A DNA stretch of 64,000 bases from Halothermothrix sp. (GTDB taxonomy: Bacteria; Bacillota; Halanaerobiia; DY22613). Positions 17,734 to 46,814 of this stretch are shown here, in pieces (position 1 is the first letter of the stretch; each line of letters begins with the position of its first letter). The notes under the pieces are model-generated. The model did no database searches and was not told the origin of the DNA. It worked only from the letters and a program-made list of their open reading frames with translations. Made by a program: the position numbers and the translations under genes. The stretch spans positions 174,846-238,845 of the forward strand of contig JAENYK010000007.1 in NCBI GenBank assembly GCA_016841825.1, in the 5' to 3' direction.

Positions 17734-18290
17734 ATATCATTTGCCCTTTATCTACTGCTACCTCTACAGCCTTTTCTGTAACCAGATAACTAAAAGTCGC
17801 ATTAAGAGCAAGCTGTTAATGCTTAGGTTGAACGAACTTCAGGAGAAGATTGTACTTCCACGAAAGTAAACACAATTTAGTTATTTACAATCTCACCTTT
17901 AGAGGCTGAGAGACTCTCCTGATGAAATGTCGTTAATAAGCAGAAATTGTGGATAAAGTTAAAAATCGGGATACGGTCTCAGAGATTTGATATTTCTGAA
18001 TTAATCGAGCTACCACCTCTTCTCTGGTGAGTGGCTCTTTTATTATTATCGGGTGTAAAAACCAATCTGCCCCATCATGATCTGCATGGGCAGAAGTAAT
18101 AATTAACGTATCAGGTTTAATTCCAAACTCCTTAATGCTTTAGTCACTCTTTTGCTGTTGAAGCATCAATTCCCCGATCAATAGAATACCTTTACTGACA
18201 GTGTACAGGATTACTTTTGCTGGAAAGTAAAATAGAATAACCTGTCAGTCAGATTAATCAACATCTTTCCACCTTTTCAAATTTGATTCT
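17720..18290 (-). pseudogene. Decayed MBL-fold hydrolase, interrupted by repeat element A
   Basis: Reading the minus strand from about 18285, one frame gives KFEKVERC*LI*LTGYSILLSSK, then NPVHCQ*RYSIDRGIDASTAKE*. A second frame gives KEFGIKPDTLIITSAHADHDGADWF, the zinc-binding HxHxDH-like region of MBL-fold enzymes. It then jumps to EPLTREEVVARLIQKYQ and SETVSRFLTLSTISAY. Repeat element A follows, and after it the frame resumes with TFSYLVTEKAVEVAVDKGQMIFISK and a stop at 17720, overlapping the end of tmcAL. There are several stops, at least one frameshift and probably a central deletion, so no product is expected. Confidence 0.8.
17799..17940 (+). repeat. Dispersed structured repeat, copy A
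   Basis: First of four related intergenic elements. A 5' hairpin (GCATTAA/TTAATGC around CTG) is followed by TTGAACGA, an inner stem AGATTGT/ACAATCT, CAGGAG/CTCCTG, and the closing GAAATGTCGTTAA. It splits the reading frame of the MBL-fold pseudogene, which implies insertion. Confidence 0.75.
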
Positions 18291-18298
18291 CTCTAAAT

Positions 18299-19342
18299 TT
18301 AGGCAGCTTTTTTCTGAAGACCTAAGAGAAAATTCACCGCTTCTTCGATAGTTTTAACCTGGATAACCTGAAGTTTGGCAGCCGCTTTTACTGCTTCCTG
18401 ATAATTATCTGGTGGCGACAGAAAATATTCTGCCCCCTCTCTCTCAGCAGCTAACACTTTCTGGGTAACACCACTAATTGGTCCTACCAGACCGTCAAAA
18501 TCAATGGTTCCGGTTCCGGCAATTTTATAACCACGGGTCAAATCCTCTGGATGCAGTTGATTAATGATCTCCAGAGTAAACATGGTTCCTGCTGATGGAC
18601 CCAGAATATTCTCAGTATGAATCTCCACATCCACAGGAAAAACAACTTCCCGATGATGAGTAAAAATATAAATTCCAATAGAAGCTTTTTCTGGATTCTC
18701 CCCAGATTCGATAGTTTTTATCTTAAAATCCAGAACCTGATCATCACGTTTAACTTTTACATCAACGACATCACCAATCTGGTGATTCTGGATTAATTTA
18801 ACCGCTTCCGATGCCAAATCTACCTTTTGATCATTTATCTCGATGATCACATCTCCAGGTTTTAACACATCTCTGGCGTGACTGCTCTCCATTACTTCAG
18901 ATATCTCTGCACCTTCACCAGAGAACTGGGTCTCGTATCCCATCTGTCGTAAAGCCACGACTTTAGCGTAAATCTGGCTTTCTGACATCATCTCTTCCAT
19001 TAACTTCAAATATGTTTCCATATCCATATCCTGAGGTATCGTCTCTTCTTTTGGGGATAGCGAAAAACCTTTGGGACGGACTATCGATATGAGTAAAAGA
19101 TTAAATAAATTAGCCTGTTTAGACGAGACCGCTGTCAGATAAAAAGCCCCTGCTGCGTCTTTTTCCCCTTTCTCAACCGAGATAATCTCGCTCAAAGGCA
19201 AAGCCACACCTGGAGCTGTAATATAAAAATCCACTTTTATGTAATTAGCTGCTACCAACAGTATTGTGATAACAGCAACGATCATTAAAAAACGGTTTAA
19301 TCTTTCTTCAGAAAAGAACCTCTTCCTACTCAACTTAACCAA
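18299..19342 (-). CDS. PDZ and Lon-like (S16) serine protease, SepM/YlbL family
   Basis: The 347-residue protein has an N-terminal membrane anchor (about 17-36), a PDZ domain (about 125-210, with LKPGDVIIEINDQKV) and a C-terminal S16 domain with the catalytic Ser in ILGPSAGTMFTLEII and the Lys in ISGVTQKVLAAEREGA. Relatives process extracellular or membrane peptides, such as SepM on competence pheromone in streptococci, and are called YlbL in Bacillus. The start overlaps the patatin stop by 8 nt. Confidence 0.92.
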   Translation of the reverse strand: MVKLSRKRFFSEERLNRFLMIVAVITILLVAANYIKVDFYITAPGVALPLSEIISVEKGEKDAAGAFYLTAVSSKQANLFNLLLISIVRPKGFSLSPKEETIPQDMDMETYLKLMEEMMSESQIYAKVVALRQMGYETQFSGEGAEISEVMESSHARDVLKPGDVIIEINDQKVDLASEAVKLIQNHQIGDVVDVKVKRDDQVLDFKIKTIESGENPEKASIGIYIFTHHREVVFPVDVEIHTENILGPSAGTMFTLEIINQLHPEDLTRGYKIAGTGTIDFDGLVGPISGVTQKVLAAEREGAEYFLSPPDNYQEAVKAAAKLQVIQVKTIEEAVNFLLGLQKKAA

Positions 19343-20114
19343 CTCCTGTCATCTGCTTAATTTCGGGAACCATCTTTCGGGCAGCATCTATTCCGGCTTG
19401 AATCATCACATCAGCCAGACCGAGATCCATCGCTGGTAGATGGGCGACTTCAGGACGAATAATAATATCTGCATCTATCCAACCTTCCCGACTGATCTCC
19501 CGCATCATAATATCACTTGCCTGAATCATAATCTCAAAAATATTCTTCAACCTGGTTCGACCAATGCTAAATCCCACATCAACAGCGATTACCATGTCCG
19601 CCCCCATCTCTTTGACAAGACTAATAGGAATTCGATCCACCAAAGCTCCATCAACTAACAATCGACCCTCTTTTTTAAATGGTACATAGATGCCCGGAAT
19701 CGAAGAGCTAGCTCTAATAGCTTCTGCGACAGACCCAGACTTTAAGATAACCGGTTCCCCACGTTCAATATCCGTTGCTACTGCCACGAAGGGTATCAGC
19801 AAATCATCAAATGTCTTATCATGGGTAATTACCCGTAAAAAATCTAATAATCTCTTTCCGGCTACTAAACCCCGCCTGGGAAGAGTAAGATCAGTGAGGT
19901 GTTCCCATTTTATATTAGTGGCTAACTTCCTCAAATATTTGAGTTCTTGCCCTAAAGCATAAAGGCCTCCTATTAAACTGCCTGCACTGGTTCCACCAAT
20001 CATATCGATTGGAATTCCTTCTTCTTCAAAGACCTGCAAAACTCCCAGGTGAGCAAAACCTCTGATAGCTCCTGAACTCAAAGCCAATCCAACTTTTGGT
20101 CTTTCATTTACCAA
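19335..20114 (-). CDS. Patatin-like phospholipase (YlbK/RssA family)
   Basis: The 259-residue protein has the patatin Ser-Asp dyad: GGTSAGSLIGG holds the nucleophile (GxSxG) and VDGALVDRIP the Asp. ALSSGAIRGFAHLGVL is the glycine-rich oxyanion loop. No signal peptide is present, so it is cytoplasmic or membrane-peripheral. It forms a pair with the YlbL-type protease, as in Bacillus. Confidence 0.9.
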   Translation of the reverse strand: MVNERPKVGLALSSGAIRGFAHLGVLQVFEEEGIPIDMIGGTSAGSLIGGLYALGQELKYLRKLATNIKWEHLTDLTLPRRGLVAGKRLLDFLRVITHDKTFDDLLIPFVAVATDIERGEPVILKSGSVAEAIRASSSIPGIYVPFKKEGRLLVDGALVDRIPISLVKEMGADMVIAVDVGFSIGRTRLKNIFEIMIQASDIMMREISREGWIDADIIIRPEVAHLPAMDLGLADVMIQAGIDAARKMVPEIKQMTGVG

Positions 20115-20264
20115 ACTATGGTCACCTCTTTACTTTTGTTTTATTTATATTCACAAATTCCTTTAATCATACTTTAATATGACCATAATTTTCTTAATTT
20201 ACTACATATCATCGCGGATTTTTTTAAAAATTTCAAGTCTGTTCCAGATAATTTTCGAAAATGG

Positions 20265-21236
20265 CTAGCGTAACATTTTAAAATAAAATTTTGACTCAAC
20301 CAGATAATCAATAGAGAGATCTGGATCACTATCTTTATAGATAGTTGCTAATTCCTGATATACCTCGGCAATTTCAGCCAAAATTTCTTTGTCCTTTAAT
20401 TCATTAAGAGCTAATTTGAAGAAAAATATAGCAGTATCATATTCTTTCAATGCTTTGTAGTATAAAGCTTTCACAAAAAAATTTCGGGCAATCTCAATAT
20501 GATCCTTATATTCAGTTTCTGATAAGATAAGAGCAGCTTTATCTATATAATCAGAGGCTTTCTCCAGTTGTTCTAATCTAATGTACACTTTTCCCAGCTC
20601 ATTGTAAGTATAAGGAAGATATTCCTGCACATTAAATCGTAAAGCTTCAGAATAACGGGATAAAGCTTTCTGATAATACCCCTTCTCATAATAAACCATT
20701 CCAATATTATGAAGAACCATTGTAATATTCCGAAAATCCAGATCTTTTAGTTTTAAAGCCTTTTCATAATAAAAAATAGCAGTATCATATTTTTCCAACT
20801 GTTGGTAATATCGTGCCTGATGATAATAGACTAAACCAAGGCCCACATATGCTTTAAATTCAGTTCCGGGAACTGGTATATTAAGTAATGTCTGATATTG
20901 TTTAATAGCCTCTTCGTAATCGCCAAGATGTGCCAAAGAAATAGCCTGGATTTCATAAAGATCAACTCTATCCTCCAAACCAAGTAGATCAACATACTGG
21001 GCGACCTTTTTACAATGTTGAATTGCTCTGGAATAATCACCTTTATGATAATAACTATCTGCTCGCTTAATCATTAGTCTGACAAGATGACTCCCACGAT
21101 TCAACAATCGTGCATAGGCAATTGCTTCAGAAAGCATCTCAATACAATCATCGTATCTTCCCAGATCGTAATAACTCATGCTTTCTTCTAATATTTCATT
21201 AAAACGATCCTCCGTTAATGACATCAACGAACTCAC
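20265..21236 (-). CDS. Tetratricopeptide repeat protein
   Basis: The 323-residue protein is almost entirely helical TPR-type repeats, for example YYDLGRYDDCIEMLSEAIAYA, HLGDYEEAIKQYQTLLN, YYEKGYYQKALSRYSEAL and YNELGKVYIRLEQLEKASDYI. There is no signal sequence. It is probably an adaptor or scaffold; the partner cannot be told from sequence. It stands alone between two gaps. Confidence 0.85.
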   Translation of the reverse strand: MSSLMSLTEDRFNEILEESMSYYDLGRYDDCIEMLSEAIAYARLLNRGSHLVRLMIKRADSYYHKGDYSRAIQHCKKVAQYVDLLGLEDRVDLYEIQAISLAHLGDYEEAIKQYQTLLNIPVPGTEFKAYVGLGLVYYHQARYYQQLEKYDTAIFYYEKALKLKDLDFRNITMVLHNIGMVYYEKGYYQKALSRYSEALRFNVQEYLPYTYNELGKVYIRLEQLEKASDYIDKAALILSETEYKDHIEIARNFFVKALYYKALKEYDTAIFFFKLALNELKDKEILAEIAEVYQELATIYKDSDPDLSIDYLVESKFYFKMLR

Positions 21237-21496
21237 CTTCTTTCCTTAGCACATTTTTGCGAACACCTTTTTCTTCATTTTATAACACATTTCAAAATTT
21301 ACTGTTAATCCTTAAAATCTTTGGCATTTTAATTATTCTACAACAATCCCAAAAATCCTGCAAAAACTATTTCAAAAATATTATTGATATTCCATATTAT
21401 TCCTTTATTTTTTTACTTACATCCATTCAGGCAGGATTATTCCAGATAATGCTGAATATATTAGTATAAGCAAATATATCAAAGGAGATGATTCCA

Positions 21497-22693
21497 TTGC
21501 CTACTGCGGTCAATGCACATTCAGAAAAGATTGCTCAGGCCATTAAGTTATTGCCAGAGCATCAACTAGATATGTGGATCACCATATCCAGAGAGACCAT
21601 GCACGGCAAAGATCCAGCTCTAAGCCTTATCTATTCTGGGGATACTGTCTGGTTATCGGCATTTATCATCACTAGAGATGGTGCAAATATAGCCCTTGTT
21701 GGCAATCATGATGCCGACGGAATCCGTCAGAGAGAAGAATTCGCTACTATCCTCAGTTATGATGAAGATTTCCGGCAGCCTTTTTTAGAAATTTTAAATC
21801 AATTTAAACCTGAGCGAATCGGTCTTAACTTCTCTCTGGAGAATCCGGCTGCCGATGGATTAAGCTATGGCTTATGGCTAAAACTACAAAGTCTCTTGCA
21901 AGATACGCCTTATATTCACAGAATATACTCCGCTGCCAGCTTAATCGGCCAGCTACGGGGAATTAAAACACCGGGTGAGATAGACAAGATCATTACATCC
22001 ATCGACTGTGCCCAGGAGATCATAACTGATGTTGGTCACAGGTTAACTCCTGGTCTCAGTGAACTGGATATCAGTATGCTCTTCAAAAAGGGAATGAAAA
22101 TCAAAGAAGTTTCCGCTGCCTGGAGTGCAGACGGATGTCCTGCAGTTAACTGCGGCCCGGAAAGTAGAGTAGGCCATAGTCAACCTTCCCCTGATAGTAT
22201 TTTGCATCAGGGTCATATCGTGCATATAGATTTTGGAGTTATCAAAGACAATTATGCCTCCGACCTTCAGCGAGTCTGGTATCTACCAAAAGAAGGTGAA
22301 GATTCTGTTCCACCCGAAGTAGCAAAAGCTTTTTATGTGGTACGTCAGGCTATCGGTAAATCTGCTGCCTTTATTAAACCTGGAGTTCTGGGATATGAAG
22401 TTGACCATATCGCACGCCAGATGATTATTGACGCTGGATATCCCGAATATAAGCATGCCCTGGGACACGAAGTCGGTCAAAAAGCCCATGATGGAGGTAT
22501 CATCTTAGGCCCTAAATGGCCCCGTTACGAAGGTACTAACAATATACCTTTGCAATCCGGAAACGTTTTCACCCTCGAATTGGGAGTCCCCACCTCTGCA
22601 GGTTATCTTGGTCTAGAAGAGATGATTCTGGTCGAAGATGATGGTTGTAGATTTTTAAGTAAACCACAGGAAGATATCTGGATTATCAAATGA
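21497..22693 (+). CDS. M24 family metallopeptidase (Xaa-Pro aminopeptidase-like)
   Basis: The roughly 398-residue protein has an N-terminal creatinase-like domain and a C-terminal pita-bread fold. Probable metal ligands are in VHIDFGV, YASDLQRV, HALGHEVGQKAHD, TLELGVP and LEEMILVEDD. It is likely to cut peptides before proline, but substrates in this family vary. I favour the TTG at 21497, 8-9 nt after GGAG; the ATG at 21488 overlaps the Shine-Dalgarno. Confidence 0.88.
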   Translation: MPTAVNAHSEKIAQAIKLLPEHQLDMWITISRETMHGKDPALSLIYSGDTVWLSAFIITRDGANIALVGNHDADGIRQREEFATILSYDEDFRQPFLEILNQFKPERIGLNFSLENPAADGLSYGLWLKLQSLLQDTPYIHRIYSAASLIGQLRGIKTPGEIDKIITSIDCAQEIITDVGHRLTPGLSELDISMLFKKGMKIKEVSAAWSADGCPAVNCGPESRVGHSQPSPDSILHQGHIVHIDFGVIKDNYASDLQRVWYLPKEGEDSVPPEVAKAFYVVRQAIGKSAAFIKPGVLGYEVDHIARQMIIDAGYPEYKHALGHEVGQKAHDGGIILGPKWPRYEGTNNIPLQSGNVFTLELGVPTSAGYLGLEEMILVEDDGCRFLSKPQEDIWIIK

Positions 22694-22717
22694 TAGAAAT
22701 ATTTAATTGATTTACAT

Positions 22718-22753
22718 AGCACAGGCTGATTCTTCAAAGATTTAGCCTGTGTT
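22718..22753. terminator. Bidirectional hairpin between convergent genes
   Basis: CACAGGCT/AGCCTGTG forms an 8-bp perfect stem between the convergent M24 and methyltransferase genes. The T-tracts are weak on both sides. Confidence 0.55.
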
Positions 22754-22756
22754 AAC

Positions 22757-23488
22757 TTAATCTCGAAAAGCTACTCCAATCAGTGGTCTGGAATTATTCG
22801 GATCATATTCTGCTCCCTGAAAACTACCCATTAATGCTAACTTCGTAAAACCAACAGTGGTTAACAACATTTTTATCTCCACAGAATGCAGAGGATATAA
22901 AGCGATAGAATGCCTGGACTCTTCTCCATCCTTAACCACTAATCTGGTATTAAAATAAATCAAATTAGTGTTCTGATCATATTGATAATCCCGATAAAAA
23001 GTAACTCCCTTCTCATGATTATCGATCACCGGTAAACTGGTAATCTTCTGACTTATTATTCGATCATAGTTGACGATTTGAAAAATAAAACAACCACCTG
23101 AGTTCAAAAGATTATATATCTGGTTAAAGAAATTTCTTATCTCTAGTAAGCGGGTTAGATGAACAATTGTGTTTCCAAAACAGCTAATCCCGGCAAAATT
23201 ACCTGCAAACACCTGACCTAATTCTCGCATATCACCAACCCGAAAGTCAATCTCAACTTCTTCATGTTTCGCTCTTTGACGGGCTTCTGCGATCATCTCT
23301 TCACTTAAGTCTACTCCGCTAAGCTGATACCCATCTTTCGCCAGATTAATCGCCATCTCTCCAGTGCTGCAGCCGACATCCAACATGCTCGCACCCAGAG
23401 GAATATACTTCTTAATTAACGCCAGTTTATGGACTGTCAGTGGAAAGATATCTTCATAATATTTGCTTAAATCCTGGTAAAATTTCAT
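22757..23488 (-). CDS. Class I SAM-dependent methyltransferase
   Basis: The 243-residue protein has the SAM-binding motif MLDVGCSTGEMAINLA (about 35-50), the acidic loop LSGVDLSEEMI, and GDMRELG followed by GISCFGNTIVHL. It is a Methyltransf_25-type small-molecule or unknown-substrate enzyme. The neighbours do not reveal its substrate. Confidence 0.88.
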   Translation of the reverse strand: MKFYQDLSKYYEDIFPLTVHKLALIKKYIPLGASMLDVGCSTGEMAINLAKDGYQLSGVDLSEEMIAEARQRAKHEEVEIDFRVGDMRELGQVFAGNFAGISCFGNTIVHLTRLLEIRNFFNQIYNLLNSGGCFIFQIVNYDRIISQKITSLPVIDNHEKGVTFYRDYQYDQNTNLIYFNTRLVVKDGEESRHSIALYPLHSVEIKMLLTTVGFTKLALMGSFQGAEYDPNNSRPLIGVAFRD

Positions 23489-23562
23489 TCGATTAAACCT
23501 CCTTTATTAGCTTAGCATATCCATTTTCGTGCGATAATTCTTAAGAAAAAGTTAGCAATATG

Positions 23563-23593
23563 AAAAAAGCAAACCCATCAAAATGGTGGGTTT
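23563..23593 (-). terminator. Terminator after the M30-like lipoprotein gene
   Basis: On the minus strand AAACCCACCA/TGATGGGTTT forms a 10-bp stem with one mismatch, followed by GCTTTTTTC. Confidence 0.8.
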
Positions 23594-23616
23594 GGACTGA
23601 GATTGATTAATTTATT

Positions 23617-25107
23617 TTATCTAAAAGTAATGACTGATACATTGATGGAAGGAATAGAACTCCCATCATAAGAGGAGATATTAAACCAGAGATCGGTATC
23701 TTCCTCATCAATCAGATAATACTGTACCCCTCCCCCCCTAATTTGTAGGGTATCTAATAATGATAGTTTTTTGTAGACAGGAGCACTTGCCAGACTTAAT
23801 TTAAGATAACGATAATCATCATCTGGAATATTAGCAAATCGATCAATCATATTGGCTGTCATCCAGTTTTGCACGATCTCGTCAAAACTTACGCCGACTA
23901 CTCTACTAATCTCATCTTCAATCTTCCGGTCGGCATGGATGATCTTCGAGATAATATCCAGATTATCATAGTGGTCATACAGATAGTATGCGAACAATCC
24001 GGCAGAGCCATAGTTGGAGTATTCCCGATCATACTCCCAATCCCGAAGACCATCACGGGCTGGATTTGCAAAATAACCACGATTCTGATCATAAATTCGC
24101 CAATCATTATTCAACTGCAAATAGCATGTGAGAGTAGAAGCCAAAACTGACAAACCCTCATTAATCCAGAGATCATCGTAGGCAAAACGCGAGCTGGAAG
24201 CTTGAAGTTTTGCACTATAAAATAACAGATGTTGGAATTCATGAGCAATATTACTATAAATTTTAGTCATCTGATTTTGTGCCAAAACATTCGCATTGAG
24301 ATAGATCATATCCTGATTATTAGAATAAGAGAGATCTTTATAATTAGTCTCATCAAAATAGCCAATTAAATCTATAGGAGAACCATAATATGTTAGTGGT
24401 GTAATTAGCAGAGTAACTTTACCATCCCCATCCTTATCATAAGGCACACCAAATCCATAATCCTTTAAAAGATCATAAATTCGGATTTCAAATTCAGCCA
24501 ATATCTTATCTACTTGAGTAGAGTTAACATCCACTGCGTTAACATCCACATATATTTGCATTCTGGGACCTGTTTTAGCTTCATATGCTGTAACTTGTGA
24601 ATAGACATTTCCACTATAGGTTTTTTTACAAACCCAGAAAAGTCTCTCACCTGCTTGAAGTCCCTGGAGATTCATCAACTCAGCCTGTTCCTCAGATTTA
24701 ATCATCCCGGCATCTCCGGTATAGGCAAAATAGTCGTTAGATGAACTCTTCACCGACAAATCTTCAGCTTCATCCAATCCGATCTGACCACTGTTCTGAC
24801 TTTGCCCTGCCGCATTAGCTGTGCTAAACTTATCTAACGAAATACTTAGTTTATAATTCTCCCTATTTCCGATTGGTGAGAGTGCTACAATCGCCTTGCG
24901 ATCACCAGACAAATCAGGTAATTCAAAGCCTGGGTTATGCGGATAAACTATAAAAGTATCAATATCCACTACACTTCCCGTTAAACCTGGAGTATTTGGA
25001 TTAATATTTATTGGACTCAATTCACCTAACCAGGCAAGACATCCCGATAAAGAGACTGTCAAAATTCCCATCCAGACAAGTAACATTAGCTTTTTATGTA
25101 TTCTCAT
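23617..25107 (-). CDS. Secreted lipoprotein with M30 (hyicolysin)-like zinc metallopeptidase domain
   Basis: The 496-residue protein starts with a lipoprotein signal (lipobox LSGC at about 20-23). After about 150 residues it has the zinc motif in NIAHEFQHLLFYSAK (HExxH) and a downstream WINEGLSVLAS, whose Glu is the likely third ligand, matching M30-type peptidases. It is probably attached outside the cytoplasmic membrane and acts on extracellular protein. The C-terminal ~80 residues look like a beta-sandwich (WFNISSYDGSSIPSINVSVITF). It is a single gene with its own terminator. Confidence 0.8.
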   Translation of the reverse strand: MRIHKKLMLLVWMGILTVSLSGCLAWLGELSPININPNTPGLTGSVVDIDTFIVYPHNPGFELPDLSGDRKAIVALSPIGNRENYKLSISLDKFSTANAAGQSQNSGQIGLDEAEDLSVKSSSNDYFAYTGDAGMIKSEEQAELMNLQGLQAGERLFWVCKKTYSGNVYSQVTAYEAKTGPRMQIYVDVNAVDVNSTQVDKILAEFEIRIYDLLKDYGFGVPYDKDGDGKVTLLITPLTYYGSPIDLIGYFDETNYKDLSYSNNQDMIYLNANVLAQNQMTKIYSNIAHEFQHLLFYSAKLQASSSRFAYDDLWINEGLSVLASTLTCYLQLNNDWRIYDQNRGYFANPARDGLRDWEYDREYSNYGSAGLFAYYLYDHYDNLDIISKIIHADRKIEDEISRVVGVSFDEIVQNWMTANMIDRFANIPDDDYRYLKLSLASAPVYKKLSLLDTLQIRGGGVQYYLIDEEDTDLWFNISSYDGSSIPSINVSVITFR

Positions 25108-25354
25108 TGTAAACTGCCGCCTTCTCTATCGACCAGTCAGTGAGCATATATACCTCAACTAGACAGTCAATACTGATGACGACTTACACCTACCTTTCTT
25201 AAATATAATTAAAATATAATATAGAAAAAGAACTTCTCCCTGTCAGAGTAATTCTTGTTGCTAATCTTATATTTATATTTATCTGTCGCCCAGAAAAATC
25301 CTTCATTTTAATGTAAATTTATTCTTTCATAACTCGCAAATCTCCAAATTCACC
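25108..25354. other. Divergent intergenic region
   Basis: A/T-rich region between the M30-like gene and the riboswitch promoter. It must contain the minus-strand promoter of the lipoprotein gene. I see no gene or strong structure. Confidence 0.35.
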
Positions 25355-25383
25355 TTGACAGATTTAACATTTTTCAGTAAAAT
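25355..25383 (+). promoter_or_regulatory. Sigma-A promoter of the riboswitch-ATPase transcript
   Basis: TTGACA and TAAAAT are spaced by 17 bp, placing the transcript start near 25390, about 20 nt before the riboswitch aptamer. Confidence 0.82.
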
Positions 25384-25407
25384 GATCTTAAGAAACTTAT
25401 TTTACTC

Positions 25408-25505
25408 ATTAAAGGGGAGTAGCTACTACGATGAGGATCAACATTTCGGCAGTAATCTGCCTGGTCCTCGTCCTTTGGTAAATTACCCAAAGAGCAAGAC
25501 CTTTA
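25408..25505 (+). ncRNA. yybP-ykoY (Mn2+) riboswitch aptamer
   Basis: The sequence has the conserved parts of this class in order: AAAGGGGAGTAGC at 25411, ATCAACATTTCGG near 25437, CCTGGTCCTCGTCCTTTGG, then ACCCAAAGAGCAAGACCTTT. The 5' AAAGG and 3' CCTTT close helix P1. The CCTTT is also the left arm of a terminator, so metal binding that stabilises P1 should prevent termination and switch the gene on. The cargo gene is a P-type cation ATPase, as for yoaB of Lactococcus. Confidence 0.9.
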
Positions 25506-25539
25506 ACGCTAGTCTTTTATCGCGTTGAAGGTTTTTTTA
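25500..25539 (+). terminator. Riboswitch expression-platform terminator
   Basis: CCTTTAACGC/GCGTTGAAGG forms a 10-bp stem with one G-U pair, followed by seven T. The left arm overlaps the 3' strand of riboswitch P1, so the two structures exclude each other. Confidence 0.88.
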
Positions 25540-25599
25540 TTTTCTCAAGTACTAACTTGTGAATTGAATGGAGAATATGCAAAGCATTCATAATAATGG

Positions 25600-25720
25600 G
25601 TATAATATAGGCTAAGAATCGGTAGCTGTTTATACTTGGTTTAACGACTTAAGAAGGGACTTGTGCTGCACTCTCCACCGATGGAGGCCAGAAGACTATC
25701 CTGCTGAAATATCGATATAA
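25600..25720 (+). repeat. Dispersed structured repeat, copy B
   Basis: Second copy, in the ATPase leader between the riboswitch terminator and the start codon. The 5' hairpin is GTATAA/TTATAC. It then shows TTTAACGACTT, GGGACTTGT, a CTCC/GGAG stem, and ends CTGAAATATCGATA. It lacks the central 20-30 nt of copies A and C. Confidence 0.65.
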
Positions 25721-25769
25721 TTATTCCACATTAAAATAATTACGTACATAAAAAGGAGGTTTACTAATT

Positions 25770-28457
25770 TTGAACTGGTATCAGCTTGAATCAAAACAGG
25801 TTGCAAAAGAATTGAACACCGATTTAAAAAATGGGTTATCCAATAACCTGGTAAAAATGCGTCAGGAAGAATATGGTTTTAATGAACTAATAGGCAAAGA
25901 AGGACGAAGTATCTGGGATATGATAATCGCCCAATTCAAAGATTTTCTGATCATCATTCTGATCGCCTCCAGTATAATCTCCATACTAGTGGGTGAAGTT
26001 ACAGATGCAATCGTTATCCTGATTATCGTTGTTTTAAATGCTGTTTTAGGGGTATCCCAGGAAAATAGAGCCAATAAGGCTCTGGAAGCGCTAAAACAAA
26101 TGGCCTCACCTCAAGCCAAAGTAATTCGCGATGGTAAAATTCTTCAGGTTCCTTCAAAAGAACTGGTTCCCGGAGACCTGGTTATCTTAGAGACCGGAGA
26201 TTATATACCAGCAGACTTACGCTTAGTAGAAAGTGTCAATCTTAAGATTGAAGAAGCATCACTCACAGGTGAATCGGTAGCGGTGGAAAAAAATGCTGAT
26301 GAGATTCTGGATGGTGAAGTCTCTATCGGTGACCGCCATAATCTCGGATTTATGGGAACAATTATTACATACGGTCGCGGGAAAGGAATTGTCGTCAATA
26401 CCGGGATGAAAACCGAAATTGGGCAGATTGCCGAAATGTTAGAATCTTATGAGGAAGGCGATACCCCTCTACAACGGAAATTAGCTGACTTCGGCAAATT
26501 ATTAGGTTATGTTGCTATGGGGGTTGTTGTTTTAGTATTTATTCTGGGATTGATCAGAAATGAACCCATTCTGGATATGTTTATGACCTCAATCAGCCTG
26601 GCAGTAGCTGCCATTCCGGAGGGGCTGCCGGCTATCGTAACCATTGTTCTGGCTCTGGGAATGAAGCGAATGATTCAACGTCACGCCATCGTCAAAAGAC
26701 TCCATGCTGTAGAATCTTTAGGAAGTGTGACCATCATCTGCTCCGATAAGACCGGTACACTGACCAGGAACGAAATGACTGTAGTATCTACCTACACTGG
26801 ACATAAAACCTATACCGTAACTGGTAAAGGCTATGCACCTGAAGGTGAATTTTACTTTAAAGATGAAATAATTAACCCCCAGGAAAATCCCGATCTTTCA
26901 ATATTGTTAAAGATGTGTGCTTTAAACAATGACTCGAAACTTGATAAAAATAAAGAAAAGGGAGATGAAGATGCCTGGAAACTGATTGGTGACCCTACAG
27001 AAGGTTCATTACTGGTAGCCGCCCTGAAAGCCGGGTACTCTCTCGAGAAACTTCATAATATCCATCCCCGGTTGCAGGAGATTCCTTTTGATTCTGAACG
27101 TAAACGGATGACCACGTTTCATAATAACCCAGAAAATAAGAACTTTTATGCTTTTGTCAAGGGGGCTCCTGATGTCACCCTGGCATTGTGTACCAGGATG
27201 TATAAACATGGAACGATAACTACAATTACTGATACAGATAAAAAAGGTATTATGAAAGCCAATTCCGATATGGCTAAACAATCTTTACGTGTTCTGGCGC
27301 TTGCCTTTCGAGAGATTGATGAGATTCCTAAAAATCCAACCCCGGGTGAAATAGAAAATGACCTAATATTTGTCGGTTTGATGGGAATGATTGATCCTGC
27401 CCGACCCGAAGCTGTTGAAGCTATTGCCACCTGTAAATCTGCTGGTATCCGTCCGATCATGATCACAGGTGATTATCAGACCACCGCCGTAGCTATTGCC
27501 AAAGAGTTAGGCATTATCGAAAGTGAAACAGCTTCGATGACAGGTGCAGAATTAGATAAAATTTCAGATGAAGAACTGACCAAAGCAGTGCAAAAAGTCA
27601 GTGTTTTTGCCAGAGTCTCCCCACAACATAAAGTAAAAATTGTTGAAGCCTTGAAAGCTAATGGAGAGATCGTCTCCATGACTGGCGACGGTGTTAATGA
27701 TGCTCCTGCCCTGAAACGTGCCGATATTGGTGTAGCTATGGGGATTACTGGTACAGATGTAGCAAAAGAAACTGCTGAGATGATTCTAACTGATGATAAT
27801 TTTGCCAGTATTGTCTCTGCAGTGGAAGAAGGTCGAGTCATCTACAGTAACATCAGAAAATTTATCTTCTTCCTCCTATCCTGTAACGTTGCTGAACTGA
27901 TGATCATCTTTCTGGCTATGGTCTTGAATATGCCAATACCTTTAGAACCAATTCAGATATTGTGGTTGAATCTGGTAACAGATGCGTTCCCAGCGCTGGC
28001 CCTGGGAATGGAACCTGCTGAACCTGGATTGATGAAAGAAAAACCTCGTGATCCTCAAGAGTCAATTATTAATCGGAAGATGCGTTGGGGAATCATTATC
28101 CAGAGTCTGGCGATGACGTTTGCTGTATTGGGAATCTTCTGGGTGATCTACCGGCAAACTGGCGATGTACACACAGCCCGTAACTATGCCTTCGTTACTC
28201 TGATTACCAGCGAATTATTGCGTGCCTATACTGCACGTTCAGAAGATATCTCTATCTTTAGACTGGGCTTTTTGACTAACAAATTTGTCATTGGTGGCAC
28301 ACTCTTCTCCTTCGCCTTAGTATTGATGGTAATGTATATACCATTCTTCCAGCCTATATTTGGTACAATCGCATTGGGCCTAAATGAGTGGATACGGGTA
28401 TTAATGTACGCTATCGTTCCATCAGTTGTCGCAGAGATAACAAAACTTTTTCATTAA
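25770..28457 (+). CDS. P-type (P2A-like) divalent cation-transporting ATPase, probable Mn2+/Ca2+ exporter
   Basis: The 895-residue protein has the full P-type order: cation-transporter N domain, actuator motif TGES (in SLTGESVAV), phosphorylation motif CSDKTGTLTRNE, and hinge GDGVNDAPALKRAD. Membrane ligands of the SERCA/PMR1 type are present: PEGL in M4, CNVAELM in M5 and NLVTDAFPAL in M6. These suit Ca2+ or Mn2+. The Mn2+ riboswitch upstream makes Mn2+ efflux the best guess. The start is TTG, with AAAGGAGG 10 nt upstream. A strong terminator follows. Confidence 0.93.
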   Translation: MNWYQLESKQVAKELNTDLKNGLSNNLVKMRQEEYGFNELIGKEGRSIWDMIIAQFKDFLIIILIASSIISILVGEVTDAIVILIIVVLNAVLGVSQENRANKALEALKQMASPQAKVIRDGKILQVPSKELVPGDLVILETGDYIPADLRLVESVNLKIEEASLTGESVAVEKNADEILDGEVSIGDRHNLGFMGTIITYGRGKGIVVNTGMKTEIGQIAEMLESYEEGDTPLQRKLADFGKLLGYVAMGVVVLVFILGLIRNEPILDMFMTSISLAVAAIPEGLPAIVTIVLALGMKRMIQRHAIVKRLHAVESLGSVTIICSDKTGTLTRNEMTVVSTYTGHKTYTVTGKGYAPEGEFYFKDEIINPQENPDLSILLKMCALNNDSKLDKNKEKGDEDAWKLIGDPTEGSLLVAALKAGYSLEKLHNIHPRLQEIPFDSERKRMTTFHNNPENKNFYAFVKGAPDVTLALCTRMYKHGTITTITDTDKKGIMKANSDMAKQSLRVLALAFREIDEIPKNPTPGEIENDLIFVGLMGMIDPARPEAVEAIATCKSAGIRPIMITGDYQTTAVAIAKELGIIESETASMTGAELDKISDEELTKAVQKVSVFARVSPQHKVKIVEALKANGEIVSMTGDGVNDAPALKRADIGVAMGITGTDVAKETAEMILTDDNFASIVSAVEEGRVIYSNIRKFIFFLLSCNVAELMIIFLAMVLNMPIPLEPIQILWLNLVTDAFPALALGMEPAEPGLMKEKPRDPQESIINRKMRWGIIIQSLAMTFAVLGIFWVIYRQTGDVHTARNYAFVTLITSELLRAYTARSEDISIFRLGFLTNKFVIGGTLFSFALVLMVMYIPFFQPIFGTIALGLNEWIRVLMYAIVPSVVAEITKLFH

Positions 28458-28476
28458 TATAATTAGAAATGTTAGA

Positions 28477-28522
28477 AGTAGCCCGACTTTAGCTAGTTTG
28501 CTAAAGTTGGGCTACTTTTTTT
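28477..28522 (+). terminator. Terminator of the ATPase gene
   Basis: A 17-bp stem AGTAGCCCGACTTTAGC/GCTAAAGTTGGGCTACT with one G-T pair is followed by six T. The hairpin may also serve the convergent esterase gene. Confidence 0.92.
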
Positions 28523-28533
28523 AGAATCGTCTC

Positions 28534-29403
28534 TTAGACAAAATTTTCGAGAAATGATAATGCCCGCTTAAAAACATCTTTTGTTTCTGATTTTGTCATA
28601 TCATAGTCAAACGCATGGCCCGCTCCGGATACTGTGATAAGTTCTGCATAAACTCCCTGATTGGTCAACTCCTGAAACATTTGTACCGATTGCTCATAGG
28701 GAACATCAGTATCCATATCACCGTGGATAAGTAATGTTGGTGGATAAGATTTGTTAATATTGTACACTGGGCAAAATTGCTGCAACAGTTGCTTGTCTAT
28801 CTTGAAATCATAGCCGCTAATTAGATTGGTCCAGATACCCTGTTGACGACAATACAAATAGAATTGAAAACGCTCTCTGTTACCCTGAGTGATCGCTTGA
28901 TTACTCACAAAAGAATAAGCCTCTTCTTTGAGTACATGAGGTTGTTGAGAGTAAAATTCACTGGGTTTACCATACCAATCTGCCAGGATATCACCATACC
29001 CATAAAAAGAGACTATCGCTTGCGGTTTTTCCGGAAATGCACCAGCCAATAGGCTGAGATAACCTCCTGCTGAACTTCCTACCAGAGCTATTCTCTCCGG
29101 GTCTATTTTTAAAAGATCTTTACCTTGAATTTTGACCCAGTTAAGTGCATCAGTAATATCTTCTCTAATTTGTTCTAATTTTGTTTCAGGGGCTAAACGA
29201 TAATCGATTGAGACAACTGTATATCCAGCTTGATTGTAGAGTTGAATCTGCTCTGGAATCATACTATCTTTTGAACCCCAGATTAAAGCTCCACCGTGAA
29301 TGAAGATAATTGCCGGAGATTTAGGGATTGTTGTCGGATAAACATCTGCTTTAATTGAACAATTCCCCACCCTTTTGTATTCATAAGTCTGCTTCATATC
29401 CAT
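28534..29403 (-). CDS. Alpha/beta hydrolase, carboxylesterase/BD-FAE-like
   Basis: The 289-residue protein has the oxyanion HGGALIWG motif, the nucleophile in LVGSSAGGYLSLL (GxSxG), the Asp in LIHGDMDTDVPYEQ and the His in GAGHAFDYD. There is no signal peptide. The substrate is unknown; hormone-sensitive-lipase or BD-FAE esterases are closest by motif. It is transcribed alone. Confidence 0.87.
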   Translation of the reverse strand: MDMKQTYEYKRVGNCSIKADVYPTTIPKSPAIIFIHGGALIWGSKDSMIPEQIQLYNQAGYTVVSIDYRLAPETKLEQIREDITDALNWVKIQGKDLLKIDPERIALVGSSAGGYLSLLAGAFPEKPQAIVSFYGYGDILADWYGKPSEFYSQQPHVLKEEAYSFVSNQAITQGNRERFQFYLYCRQQGIWTNLISGYDFKIDKQLLQQFCPVYNINKSYPPTLLIHGDMDTDVPYEQSVQMFQELTNQGVYAELITVSGAGHAFDYDMTKSETKDVFKRALSFLENFV

Positions 29404-29550
29404 CTGGTCATCTCCTTATGATGTTTTTTGATTACGAACAAAATAAATCATAATAACAGATCATTTTCGTAAGTCAGATTTTATCAATATTTCTATTCGT
29501 CAAATTATTCTTTTCACCTGCATAAGTTATGCACTCTCGGTTACCACTCC

Positions 29551-29684
29551 ATTAAAGGCGCTGTTAACGCCTGGCTTAACGACTTTAGATGGGGATTTGT
29601 ACACCCACTGAAGTAAACACCATCTAGTTATTTATACTCCCACCTATAAAAGCCGGGAAACTTCCCTTCGGAAATGTCGATAAA
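29551..29684 (+). repeat. Dispersed structured repeat, copy C
   Basis: Third copy, in the 477-nt gap before the SpoIID-domain gene. The 5' hairpin is GGCG-CTGTTAA-CGCC. It continues with GGCTTAACGACTT, an inner AGATGG/CCATCT stem, GCCGGGAAACTTCCC and GGAAATGTCGATAA. It is closest to copy A in length and order. Confidence 0.72.
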
Positions 29685-29785
29685 ATTAAAAAAAATTGAG
29701 ATTAATAATCTATAATTTGCATCAATTATTGCTTTTTATTAGTTTCACTTAATTTTATTTTATATTTTTACATAAATATAATTAT

Positions 29786-29814
29786 TTGACAGTTACTTGT
29801 ATTTATTATATAAT
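29786..29814 (+). promoter_or_regulatory. Consensus sigma-A promoter before the SpoIID-domain gene
   Basis: TTGACA and TATAAT match consensus exactly with a 17-bp spacer, about 65 nt upstream of the GTG start. A vegetative promoter suggests the gene is not limited to sporulation. Confidence 0.87.
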
Positions 29815-29880
29815 GGAGATGCGCAGGATATATCCAAAAAAATTAGAAAGATCGCGTACGTGAGATAAGGGGGAAACATT

Positions 29881-31071
29881 GTGAGAAAAATCCTATTATC
29901 ATTAGCTGTCTGTTTGATTGTCAGTTGTATCTTATTTACCATACCATCCTTTGCTGCTCAGGATTCACCAGCCGATGTATTCAAAGTTTCTCATTTAGAA
30001 GCAAAAGCTTTCACCAAAGATGATAAACTTAACGAATTTTACAATTATGCAGAATATGATTCTACTTACTATTATAACGACCCAAATAATGGGCGGGTTG
30101 TTGGAGTTGTTTATGATGAGGAAACAGAAAAATTTGTCAAAGATGCGTGGATTGAGAATTTAGAATTAGGTTTCAAAGTGAAAACAGATAAACAAGGTCG
30201 TTTTGAGATTAACTATTTGCCTGATGGTGAATATACCTGGATTGTTAAAGCACCGGGATACAAAGGTTCTACCTATGCCTCATTTCCAGTTAACTCAATC
30301 CTGGGAGCCAGTATCTATCGCTTTGCACTCAGCTCACAACGTTCAATTAACTCTAATCTAAAATTGGACAAAGAAGCCAGACATGACCATGCCACAGAAC
30401 ATGAATCTCACCCTTTAGAAAGTGATATTTCTATCAATTCAACCCATACCGGGTGGCCAGTAATTGTTAACTTCAGCGTTAACTACAATAACGTCATCTA
30501 TTATCCCGATATGGATGAATATCTATATTATGTAGTCGCATCTGAATTATGGTCTCCTGATAGTTCACTATATTCCGGTATCTCTTCTGCCGCACTACTT
30601 CAGGGTTTTAAAGCTCAGGCTGTCACAGCCAGAACCTACGCAGATTATATCACCAGAATGTACGATAAACATAATGGTTATGACCTTTGTTCGACCACCT
30701 GTTGTCAGGTCTATAATCCACACTACACTAACCAGATGACCATTGATGCCGTTGATGGTACAACTAATCAGATGCTACTGGTAATCTATAACTGGCCAAC
30801 TTATGACTATATTTTTGTCGAAGCAGTCTTCTCAGCTTCCTGCCTCGGCTACACCAAAGATAATGAAGATGTCTGGGGTAGTAATCCAATATCTTACTTG
30901 CGAGGTGTAGTCTGCCCTTATGACCTTCGCCCAACTCTGGATTCGGGTCATAACGTAGGACTTTGTCAAGATGGAGCTATCGGTTATGCCAGGAATGGCT
31001 ATAACTATATTCAAATCTTAAACCATTATTTCACCGGGACTACTGTGAAGATCTGTAATCCACAGGCATAA
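29881..31071 (+). CDS. Secreted SpoIID/LytB-domain protein with carboxypeptidase-regulatory-like domain
   Basis: The 396-residue protein has a signal peptide (about 1-25), a CarboxypepD_reg-like beta domain (about 70-140, GRVVGVVYDEETEKFVKDAWIE) and a C-terminal SpoIID domain. The last is recognisable by ALLQGFKAQAVTARTYADYI and VGLCQDGAIGYARNGYNYIQILNHYFTG. SpoIID is a lytic transglycosylase for denuded glycan, so this may act on peptidoglycan. The catalytic Glu of the family probably corresponds to VVASELWSP. The start is GTG after AAGGGGG. It has its own sigma-A promoter. Confidence 0.85.
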   Translation: MRKILLSLAVCLIVSCILFTIPSFAAQDSPADVFKVSHLEAKAFTKDDKLNEFYNYAEYDSTYYYNDPNNGRVVGVVYDEETEKFVKDAWIENLELGFKVKTDKQGRFEINYLPDGEYTWIVKAPGYKGSTYASFPVNSILGASIYRFALSSQRSINSNLKLDKEARHDHATEHESHPLESDISINSTHTGWPVIVNFSVNYNNVIYYPDMDEYLYYVVASELWSPDSSLYSGISSAALLQGFKAQAVTARTYADYITRMYDKHNGYDLCSTTCCQVYNPHYTNQMTIDAVDGTTNQMLLVIYNWPTYDYIFVEAVFSASCLGYTKDNEDVWGSNPISYLRGVVCPYDLRPTLDSGHNVGLCQDGAIGYARNGYNYIQILNHYFTGTTVKICNPQA

Positions 31072-31239
31072 CTAAACATCAAAATTTTTTATAAAATTTT
31101 GTCAAAGATGCAGTAGAAGTGAAGTCCAAATGAACAACGCATACTGATTTGCTTCGTTTGCTTCACTCATAATCATTAACTTTTGGATTGGATGATGTAA
31201 TCTAATACCAATAGAATATGCATATTCACCTACTATAAC

Positions 31240-31278
31240 AACAAACCACTATGGAATTGCTTCCAATAGTGGTTTGTT
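31240..31278. terminator. Strong hairpin between convergent spoIID-like and cooS genes
   Basis: AACAAACCACTAT(t)GGAA pairs with TTCCAATAGTGGTTTGTT in a 17-bp stem with one bulge. T-tracts are poor on both strands, but its place between convergent genes fits a bidirectional terminator. Confidence 0.6.
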
Positions 31279-31357
31279 ATATACTAAACGTTAATATTAT
31301 AGGTCTGGCGAATTAAACAAAAGTGCCTGGAACTCAATTACCCTATTTCTAAATATA

Positions 31358-33511
31358 CTATATCTTCTCACTGAGCAACTGTTCATTGTAGGAAAGTCCC
31401 AATTCTCTCCGCTTCTCCTCAATATGACGACGATATATATTAACCGCTTTTGTTGCATCCATCTCAACCATTACTTTACCCAGACCAAGAGTTTCAGTAG
31501 TGCTAGTCAGAGTCTCAACTACCACATCCGACCCAGTAATTGATGGAACTGGTGCAACATGGATTAGCCAGCCCATAGCTACTGCTGAACAAGCATCTGC
31601 AACAGCTTTCTGTTCCAGATATTCAGGCGCACCGATTACCAGTGGTAATTTGTTGGTATCGACTTCTAAAGCATCTGCTATCTCCATAGCGGTGTGACTC
31701 ATCTTACCAATATCTACACATGCACCATAACTGAGAACCGGTGGAGTACCTAATGCCTCACAGACAGTTTTTAAACCTGGCCCTGCTTCAGCAGCTGCAG
31801 AAGGATGAGTCAAACCTGTATATTCCATAACTGCCGAAGTACATCCCCCAGAGAGTACCAGAATGTCATTTTTAATCAACTCCTGGGCTACTTTAAAGAT
31901 ATTACTCCCACCCTGTCCGTAACGGGCTGTTGTACAGCCAACAATTGTGGCAATACCACGAATATTACCTTCAACAATTTGCTCAATCAATGGCTTCCAG
32001 CTTCCACCAAGAGCTGCCTTAACAGATTCAGTACTAAACCCTACCACACACTCACTGGTATATGGTGGAATATATACTTCTCGATCTTCTTCCTGACGTT
32101 TGATAAAGGATTGTAAAGCCATCTCCAGTATTTTTTCAGCCTGTTCTTCCATTTTCTCTGGAATAAAATCAACATTTTCTGTATCGGGAAAGGGAATAAC
32201 AGGGTCAACACTGACCAGTTTTGTTCCAAAACGTTTGGCGAAGATTGGTAAAGTCGCCTCGGTACAATTATAATCAAACATAAATAGATCAACAGCACCT
32301 GTTGCCAGCAGATATTCTTGAGATAACCACTCACCTTCCTGACCACCATATGCTGGCATACTCTGAGTCATTTTATAATTCATTAATTGCTGTCCTTCAC
32401 AGGTATGACCCAACACCTGCATTCCATTGGCTCCGATTTCTTTAGCTCGATTCTGCCATTTATCTGTCGAAGCCAGCTCAACCACTTTATGTGCCAGTAA
32501 GGGCATATGACCATTTGTCACAATATTCACCAGGTCTGCACTCAACAAGCCCATATTTTGCTTTCGATGGACAATTTCCTGTGTACCCATTAATATCTCC
32601 TGCAATATATCCAAAGCTAATAAGCCCTGAAAATCATTAGCAATACCCAATCGTACGCATTGTAGCAGAAATTTGACTGGGTCTGAAGCCAGATTTGTCA
32701 TACACATAGCCTGAGTAAAACCAATCTCCGCGTTGGCTCCTCCAGGAAATAAATCCAGTTTTCGCCACAAATCTTTTCTTTGTTGGGGAGCAAAGGCTTC
32801 CACCATCTTTGACTCTTCATACTGAGGACGACAAATATCTTCAATCACCCAATTTGCAAAGTTAACTGCCACTCCCTGTATTGGAACAGTACTATCCAAA
32901 CCCGCCATCTCAGAATATTTACGTAATTTGTCCTCATCTCGAATCTGCAAACCATTCTCTGGATTCTGGCCAGCTGCTCTCAAAGTTCTGGCTGCCTGAT
33001 GCGCATGATAACAATTGGCAGCAGTACCGATGGTTACATGACGATATGTAAAGTTTCGGGCAACCATCACATGAGCGTCTACCCCGCAAACTCCTCTTGG
33101 TGATTTTTGTGAAATTCGGCAGGGACCATTGGCACACAATTGGCAGCTTAACCCCTCTATACAAAAGCGACATTGAGGTTGTTGCTCAGTGTACCTGTCA
33201 AATACATTTGTCAAAGTTTGGTTATGTACTACTTGATACATCTGCCGCATTGCCGGATCAATAATCACATTCAAAGGATAACCTTCTTTATCCTGTTCCT
33301 TTTGCACGTGTTCTCTCTGCCATTGATAAACCTTATCCATGGGAATTTCTTCTGTAATAACTTTATGATATGGTGAGATTTTTTCGTGAAGGTCGTGGTG
33401 TTCTAGCGGATCATTAGTTGAAGATCCAGTTTTATTTTTTCCATAATGCACATTTTTATTTCCCAGAGGATTGACTCCACTAATTAATTCCTTATCTTTT
33501 ACATCTGACAT
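31358..33511 (-). CDS. cooS: Anaerobic Ni-Fe carbon monoxide dehydrogenase, catalytic subunit
   Basis: CooS interconverts CO and CO2 at a Ni-Fe-S C-cluster. By eye the C-cluster ligands are all kept: His in NGHMPLLA, Cys in LGHTCEGQQ, DYNCTEA, IVGCTTA, LSGGCTS and YGACVDIG, plus the catalytic Lys in LEQKAVADA. B-cluster cysteines are in SCQLCANGPCRI and RGVCG. It has an unusual ~110-residue N-terminal extension, and a CX2C arrangement (QCRFC) where the D-cluster pair sits. The ATG at 33511 follows AAGGAGGG by 10 nt; a longer frame to 33538 would include that site. No cooF, cooC or hydrogenase genes are adjacent. Confidence 0.9.
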   Translation of the reverse strand: MSDVKDKELISGVNPLGNKNVHYGKNKTGSSTNDPLEHHDLHEKISPYHKVITEEIPMDKVYQWQREHVQKEQDKEGYPLNVIIDPAMRQMYQVVHNQTLTNVFDRYTEQQPQCRFCIEGLSCQLCANGPCRISQKSPRGVCGVDAHVMVARNFTYRHVTIGTAANCYHAHQAARTLRAAGQNPENGLQIRDEDKLRKYSEMAGLDSTVPIQGVAVNFANWVIEDICRPQYEESKMVEAFAPQQRKDLWRKLDLFPGGANAEIGFTQAMCMTNLASDPVKFLLQCVRLGIANDFQGLLALDILQEILMGTQEIVHRKQNMGLLSADLVNIVTNGHMPLLAHKVVELASTDKWQNRAKEIGANGMQVLGHTCEGQQLMNYKMTQSMPAYGGQEGEWLSQEYLLATGAVDLFMFDYNCTEATLPIFAKRFGTKLVSVDPVIPFPDTENVDFIPEKMEEQAEKILEMALQSFIKRQEEDREVYIPPYTSECVVGFSTESVKAALGGSWKPLIEQIVEGNIRGIATIVGCTTARYGQGGSNIFKVAQELIKNDILVLSGGCTSAVMEYTGLTHPSAAAEAGPGLKTVCEALGTPPVLSYGACVDIGKMSHTAMEIADALEVDTNKLPLVIGAPEYLEQKAVADACSAVAMGWLIHVAPVPSITGSDVVVETLTSTTETLGLGKVMVEMDATKAVNIYRRHIEEKRRELGLSYNEQLLSEKI

Positions 33512-33607
33512 TTTGTTTACTCCCTCCTTTGGTTTCATTTCTCTAATTAGGTTTTATCTATTATCTCCAAAATATGCGAAACCAGATATTTTTCTATAAC
33601 GATAAAC

Positions 33608-33645
33608 TGTGATAGATATTACATTCAGTTGTGATATTTATCAAT
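33608..33645. promoter_or_regulatory. Tandem CRP/FNR-type boxes between cooS and the CMD gene
   Basis: TGTGATAGATATTACA (33608-33623) and TGTGATATTTATCAAT (33630-33645) each fit TGTGA-N6-TNANN-type CRP/FNR/CooA half-site pairs. Their centres are 22 bp apart, two helical turns. They lie between divergent genes and could act on either. Confidence 0.5.
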
Positions 33646-33745
33646 GAGTTTTTTGAAAAGTAATGTTAAAATGAAGCTAATCAATGAAAAGCTTAAATAA
33701 ATTATTTTTGGATAACTTATAAATAGTTAAAGGAGGTTTTGAATC

Positions 33746-34162
33746 ATGAATAATGGTATGAAAAAACAAAATTGTCTGAATCGTAATCTGCAAGGTGAAT
33801 TTAAAAAAGAGATAGGGTTCACTCCTCCAGGAATTATGGTTGCAGAAAAACTGGGCATGGATATGCAGCATCTACTAGCTGATTATCATCATTTAGTCTG
33901 GAGAGATGATGTTATCCCTTTAAAATACAAATATCTGATCGCCCTAGCTTCAGCTATCTTTGACAACCATGAAGTACGTACAATGTTGGAATTAAAAAAA
34001 GCAGTGACTAATGGAGCTACTCGTGAAGAAATATTAGAAGTTTTGCGGCAAATTGTCTGGTTGAGAGGTGCCCCAACTCTGGTTAAGCTTGCACCAATTA
34101 TCAAATATCTCGACAAACATTTAGCCGAAAAAGAGCAGGTGAAACCGGATGACAAAAATTAA
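33746..34162 (+). CDS. Carboxymuconolactone decarboxylase (CMD/AhpD-like) family protein
   Basis: The 138-residue helical protein has the CMD pattern LKYKYLIALASAIFDNHEVRTMLELKKAVTNGATREEILEVLRQIVWLRGAPTL. The redox CxxC of AhpD is absent, so peroxidase activity is doubtful; the only Cys is near the N-terminus. AAAGGAGG lies upstream of the ATG. It overlaps the DUF1858 gene by 14 nt and is divergent from cooS. Confidence 0.85.
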   Translation: MNNGMKKQNCLNRNLQGEFKKEIGFTPPGIMVAEKLGMDMQHLLADYHHLVWRDDVIPLKYKYLIALASAIFDNHEVRTMLELKKAVTNGATREEILEVLRQIVWLRGAPTLVKLAPIIKYLDKHLAEKEQVKPDDKN

Positions 34163-34352
34163 TAAAAATATGACTATTGCTGAAGTGTTACGTCAATTCC
34201 CAAAGACAGTTCCTGTATTTCGAAATTTTGGAATGCATTGTCTGGGATGTCCCACCGCAACTGGTGAGACCCTGGAACAGGCCGCTGTAGTACACGGATT
34301 TGAGATCAATGAACTGCTAGATGCATTAAATAAAAATACCATAACTGAATAA
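34149..34352 (+). CDS. DUF1858 domain protein
   Basis: This 67-residue protein is a single DUF1858 domain, with the redox-type CxxC in FGMHCLGCPTATGETLEQAAVVHG. Such domains are often next to or fused with hybrid cluster and other anaerobic redox proteins. It overlaps the CMD gene in another frame and shares its transcript, which ends at the hairpin at 34379. Context suggests a redox or metal role near CODH, but nothing more specific. Confidence 0.88.
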   Translation: MTKINKNMTIAEVLRQFPKTVPVFRNFGMHCLGCPTATGETLEQAAVVHGFEINELLDALNKNTITE

Positions 34353-34378
34353 ATAACCTACTCTCTAAATCTTATAAG

Positions 34379-34414
34379 AAGACCCATGAATTTTTCCTCG
34401 ATTCATGGGTCTTT
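34379..34414 (+). terminator. Terminator after the DUF1858 gene
   Basis: AAGACCCATGAAT/ATTCATGGGTCTT stem with a short loop, followed by T residues. Confidence 0.75.
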
Positions 34415-34440
34415 GAACTGGTTATCAATTAAATTAAAAG

Positions 34441-34561
34441 CATCAACACTCAACTGTTAATGTTTGGCTTAACGATTTCAGAAAGGGATTTGTACTCCAC
34501 TGAGGTTGTTATGCTTCGTTATAGAGGCCGGGAAGTGTCATTCCTAAAATATCGTTAAAAG
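34441..34561 (+). repeat. Dispersed structured repeat, copy D
   Basis: Fourth copy, after the DUF1858 terminator. It overlaps the last bases of the convergent patatin gene, whose TAA lies in the element's terminal CGTTAA. The 5' hairpin is CATCAACA/TGTTAATG. The outer closing helix TTAACGAT/ATCGTTAA is perfect over 8 bp. GGATTTGTACTCCACTGAGG and AGAGGCCGGGAAG follow the family pattern. Confidence 0.7.
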
Positions 34562-46300: not shown

Positions 46301-46467
46301 AGTACCCAGAGAAAACGCAGTAATACCAACGTCTCATTTGACGGTTTCCGCGAACCTCAAAAATCTCCTACATTTTTCACCTAAAAATTTGGACTTAAAT
46401 CGTCTCAAGCTAGATGTGACAACGGGTGCGAACCTCCCGGGGTTTTCATGTGTGCTTCGGGTTCGCG
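46301..46467 (-). promoter_or_regulatory. Leader of CRISPR array 1
   Basis: These ~167 bp directly after the last repeat match the leader of array 2 with only about 5 substitutions. They contain a GCGAACC/GGTTCGC inverted repeat near 46430-46467, as in other type I-C leaders. Confidence 0.85.
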
Positions 46468-46470
46468 AAT

Positions 46471-46755: not shown

Positions 46756-46814
46756 AGTCACCTCCATGTTTCTGCTTTTCGATCTACCCAAGACTTTTAT
46801 TGTAGCATTTTTCC

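Follow-up and report, generated by a model that had tools for sequence, protein, structure and literature searches.

The window analysed here, a 64,000-nucleotide stretch of a Halothermothrix sp. genome, contains four similar segments that fold strongly, and the question is whether they are structured elements under selection or copies of something that once moved. An earlier note, made from the letters alone, had favoured selection on RNA or single-stranded DNA structure. The four copies, all in one shared orientation, are present where they had been described, and the refined coordinates are slightly longer. Copies A (17791..17937, R1 match 1.4e-30) and C (29541..29684, R1 match 3.6e-30) are full length, the central hairpin region of copy D (34432..34559, R1 match 6.5e-17) is shortened, and copy B (25601..25719, nhmmer positions 20-145) is degenerate with its internal arm deleted. 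All four were placed by alignment A1 and are assigned to the minus strand; copy A, for instance, had been described on the plus strand and its proposed transposition orientation is the minus strand. The motifs listed as common to the four copies were recovered as a hairpin, a (T/C)TTAACGA block, GGGATTTGT, AGGCYGGGA and AAATGTCGTTAAA. A subterminal hairpin of copy A, which reads GCATTAAGAGCAAGCTGTTAATGC on the plus strand, is predicted from the sequence and the consensus fold at 17798..17822 (minus strand), close to what is the right end in the proposed orientation. Copy B lies upstream of a P-type ATPase ORF (25770-28457). Copy D ends in a TTTAA pentamer (34555..34559, minus strand) whose TAA is the stop codon (34555-34557) of a patatin-like gene on the minus strand (34555-36402).

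In order to evaluate the extent of the family, a pattern search was followed by a profile search built from 38 aligned copies. The host genome, a 5.08-Mb draft in 43 contigs, contains at least 150 copies, roughly 160, of a unit of about 148 bp. A set of 145 unique copies was detected by nhmmer in 1.65 Mb of sequence (80 stretches around profile matches and the window). The expectation that further copies exist is thus borne out within the genome. It did not extend to relatives: none of 58 other members of the class gave a match to the same profile under stricter filters, with which weak matches can be lost. In an exact-pattern scan of genome contigs, a Bacteroidetes record gave an isolated match of 19 bases from which the rest of the element was absent, and among viral contigs a single one matched one element end; the other end had no match. 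Plasmid and phage BLAST searches with the element returned chance fragments only.

The folding itself is pronounced. The consensus has a predicted energy of -55.5 kcal/mol compared to -29.6 +/- 3 for dinucleotide shuffles (z -8.6), and consists of a hairpin, GCATTAACAG-CAAG-CTGTTAATGC, followed by one long stem, TTTAACGACTTCAGAAGGGG/CCCTTCTGAAATGTCGTTAAA, which encloses two smaller hairpins. The covarying helices claimed in the earlier note are not found beyond the level of shuffles, either in 38 or in 98 copies. RNAalifold called no consensus pair in the 38 aligned copies; 81.7% of the cells at consensus pairs were paired, against 81.3 +/- 0.3% with shuffled columns, and the covariation score was 0.147 against 0.144 +/- 0.005. 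The 98 full copies contained 71 compensatory cells compared to 65.4 +/- 6.2 in shuffles. Their inner hairpins were slightly above expectation in paired cells (1063 versus 1053 +/- 5), an excess that could come from subfamily structure. The earlier note had itself named such an outcome, no significant covariation, as a refutation of its claim. The covariation had been read by eye from four copies, and private pairings were picked: the inner stems AGATTGT/ACAATCT of copy A and AGATGG/CCATCT of copy C both lie off the family consensus pairs.

A strong consensus fold together with an absence of covariation indicates that the copies decayed independently from a palindromic ancestor. The 98 full copies have a median identity of 86.7% to the young consensus, with a maximum of 97.3%, and the first hairpin is missing between its flanks in several copies. 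The copies have thus mutated largely independently, and the family is a decaying mobile element rather than a constrained RNA. All copies sit between genes (ORF overlap 0/145), which is no evidence by itself because an insertion would break an ORF. Terminators were found near 31 of 145 copies and near 72 of 439 control points, an association that is not convincing. Some partial forms were also observed. An inverted double of the right end (G000:C2:358759-358805) forms a near-perfect palindrome flanked by TTTAAA and TCAAA. Two solo left ends consist of the first hairpin only (G000:C38:122953-122994 and G000:C2:128882-128910), which would fit a loss of the long palindrome once the element had inserted.

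The ends of the element are fixed. On the strand of the original description, full copies start with TTAAAG and end with GTTAAA; they are preceded by a purine and followed by few G residues. TTAAA is the only direct repeat common to both ends of full-length copies, in which no target duplication beyond this pentamer was found. When the 20 bases inside TTAAA were compared end against end, only 4 of 20 matched, hence the element has no terminal inverted repeats. Genes that reach or enter an end gave a further indication: 19 of 24 use the TAA of TTTAA as their stop codon (12 of 16 and 7 of 8 for the two ends), compared to about one third expected if truncation occurred at random (joint p = 5e-6). 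Apparently, TTTAA was in place before insertion and is left on both sides afterwards. The coincidence is seen at both ends and hence does not separate insertion by a Y1 transposase from a fixed duplication. No empty site was detected when joined flanks were compared with 1.65 Mb of the genome's own sequence. In the consensus fold, read in the proposed orientation, a palindrome lies close to each end, at a distance of 8 nt on the right and of about 20 nt from TTTAA on the left. The candidate guide tetranucleotide at the hairpin foot, which in an IS200/IS605-derived element would pair with the cleavage site, varies with subfamily: young copies read CTTAAG at the foot of the right hairpin, in keeping with TTTAA, whereas the CCCAAG of older copies does not fit it.

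The G-rich strand was taken, from GC skew, as the template of lagging-strand synthesis. For 108 of 145 copies (p = 3e-9), this strand carries the reverse complement of the element as originally described. In a joint model the leading strand adds information after gene strand (LRT 6.75), whereas little is gained from gene strand once the leading strand is included (1.89); the orientation bias is therefore better explained by replication than by the strand of the genes. IS200/IS605 elements insert into the lagging-strand template (PMC6006769), and no such preference was seen in Halanaerobium hydrogeniformans (PMC7290912).

The same genome holds a second dispersed repeat of about 117 bp with hairpins, of which about 30 copies were sampled (for example at about 15437-15555 of stretch L099, G000:C2:110484-110602). 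Its layout is TATATCTAAGTTC...GCTTTAGCTGAACGAGTTCACT, and its right end has a terminal hairpin with a CTTTAG loop, followed by GAGTTCAC. The reverse complement of the first family is distantly similar to it, aligning with a score of 61, the best of 2000 shuffles reaching 42. It shows no strand bias (15 of 30). By its likeness, this second family looks like the right end of an IS605-type transposon. The window also contains, at 44300-48720, two CRISPR-like arrays with repeats of about 32 bp (ATTTCAATCCACGCACCCGCATGGGGTGCGAC and a GTGTG variant) and a period of about 66, which is why this stretch is devoid of long ORFs; the repeat resembles type I-C repeats.

A present-day mobiliser was searched for in the host genome. 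PF01797 detected no intact Y1 transposase, only two fragments. One degenerate IS605 (G000:C22:430777 region) carries an intact TnpB of about 376 aa after a 52-aa remnant of the Y1 transposase; the ends associated with this one intact TnpB of the genome and with the transposase fragments differ from those of the element. No TnpA/TnpB locus of the genome or of its class relatives had ends similar to the element's, and we detected neither an autonomous copy with both element ends around a gene nor paired solo ends. A search for IS91-type Y2 transposases gave no match in the genome and was equally silent in control genomes.

Together, these observations make it probable, though by no means certain, that the family is a non-autonomous IS200/IS605-like element of about 148 bp, similar to PATEs, that depended for its movement on a Y1 transposase acting in trans and since lost. 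Its transposition orientation would be the reverse complement of the one originally described: host TTTAA would be followed by CGACATTTCAGAAGGGAAGT, the hairpin CTCCCAGCCTCTATAGGTGGGAG, an arm in the middle, a further arm (CCCCTTCTGAAGTCGTTAAA) whose sequence is complementary to that of the left end, the hairpin GCATTAACAG-CTTG-CTGTTAATGC and the right terminus GACTTTAA, and then by a host Y. Folding would take place while the strand, as template for lagging-strand synthesis, is single-stranded. The subterminal hairpins would be recognised by a Y1 HUH transposase of the IS200/IS605 type acting in trans, which would cut at both TTTAA sites and insert the element on the 3' side of a TTTAA elsewhere, again in a template of the lagging strand. 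Neighbouring stop codons would remain intact after insertion because both ends carry TTTAA. The autonomous source would since have disappeared, leaving the remaining copies to decay. Counting against this account, the two hairpins of the element are not alike; in IS608 both hairpins are the same (PMC7290912). Further points against it are that the searches found no intact Y1 transposase, no autonomous copy, no similar ends at TnpA or TnpB loci of relatives and no empty site, that the guide varies with subfamily, and that the second repeat family lacks a strand bias and resembles IS605 by likeness only.

Among the other explanations, a DDE transposase that moves a classical MITE and duplicates a fixed TTAA(A) target would account for TTAAA at both ends and also for the stop codons found there. 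This is unlikely given that the bases inside TTAAA show no terminal inverted repeat, and a bias towards one replication strand is not expected of such an element. A bcr1-like element with a mobiliser of some other kind, perhaps related to site-specific recombination rather than Y1, is a minor possibility: size, copy number, intergenic position and lineage restriction are similar, the pentamer is T-rich there too (TTTAT for bcr elements, PMC6542083), and the genome has no intact Y1 gene, but Y1 is favoured by the homology of the element's body to the IS605-like repeat and by the lagging-strand bias. We regard as quite unlikely the broader variant in which the element, and possibly bcr1, would form a distinct class that is coupled to replication, folds as a single strand and targets a T-rich pentamer, with an enzyme outside both the known Y1 and the DDE transposases and with no identifiable autonomous partner.

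Two further readings are less likely still. The structured RNA, or selected single-stranded DNA, with covarying helices proposed in the earlier note would suit the very stable consensus fold and the intergenic position of the copies; it has become very improbable with covariation absent from 38 and 98 copies alike, a hairpin deleted in several of them, a presence in 1 of 59 genomes and a negative Rfam search. Rfam gave no match in the window at the gathering score, and a permissive search of the four copies with their flanks nothing convincing on the element, in agreement with the view that this is not a known RNA class. Folding as single-stranded DNA probably did matter, as the fold statistics and the replication-tracking orientation suggest, but selection on the structure does not stand, and the folding most likely reflects past movement and not a conserved RNA function. 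That the copies are attC-like integron sites is scarcely credible. Both degenerate boxes, RYYYAAC (GTTTAAC) and GTTRRRY (GTTAAAT), fit by letter, but the stem of the consensus fold runs on across them with no unpaired central spacer, each copy occurs singly among ordinary genes, on either strand, and of five Phage_integrase matches those that were read resemble Xer-type recombinases or short ones of phage type.

The preferred reading, a Y1-mobilised miniature element, places the family close to several known systems. PATEs have no ITRs, no target duplication and near-terminal palindromes of which the 5' one lies further from the end, as exemplified by the HqIRS families of IS200/IS605 in Haloquadratum (PMC3119063); one PATE-like copy has been described in Halanaerobium hydrogeniformans (PMC7290912). 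The element is similarly short, non-coding and abundant, with a fixed targeting pentamer and neither ITRs nor a variable target duplication, and its 5' palindrome too lies further from the end; the mobiliser of PATEs is likewise often present only as pseudogenes. It differs in that its ends also pair together in one long stem and that its two subterminal hairpins are unlike each other. Because no IS605-type transposon with related ends was found, we do not file it as a proven PATE.

Judged by description, its anatomy also resembles that of bcr1, which is about 155 bp long, in size, copy number, intergenic position, lineage restriction and a T-rich pentamer; the pentamer itself differs, TTTAT compared to TTTAA here. 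bcr1 is a MITE-like element with up to 130 copies in the Bacillus cereus group (PMC6542083, PMC3446304), and bcr mobility has been linked to the TTTAT motif (PMC6542083). Plasmid records, some with bcr1, showed no similarity to the element. REP sequences with TnpA_REP/RAYT are likewise intergenic, high-copy palindromes related to Y1 transposases (PMC8266576, PMC6006769); however, they measure 21-65 nt against about 148 nt, and no intact TnpA_REP-like gene (PF01797) was found in the element's own genome. The earlier note had not recognised a known MITE, which holds narrowly, in that terminal inverted repeats are lacking; the family is still a miniature non-autonomous mobile element of PATE-like or bcr1-like character.

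The element is thus ordinary in kind and new in sequence. It provides an example of how dispersed, strongly folding repeats can mimic a covarying RNA when they are in fact decaying mobile DNA. Its roughly 160 copies, single pentamer target and bias towards one replication strand make it a useful case of an orphan miniature element, probably driven by a Y1 transposase, that has lost its mobiliser, and the comparison between bcr1 and PATEs becomes testable with it.
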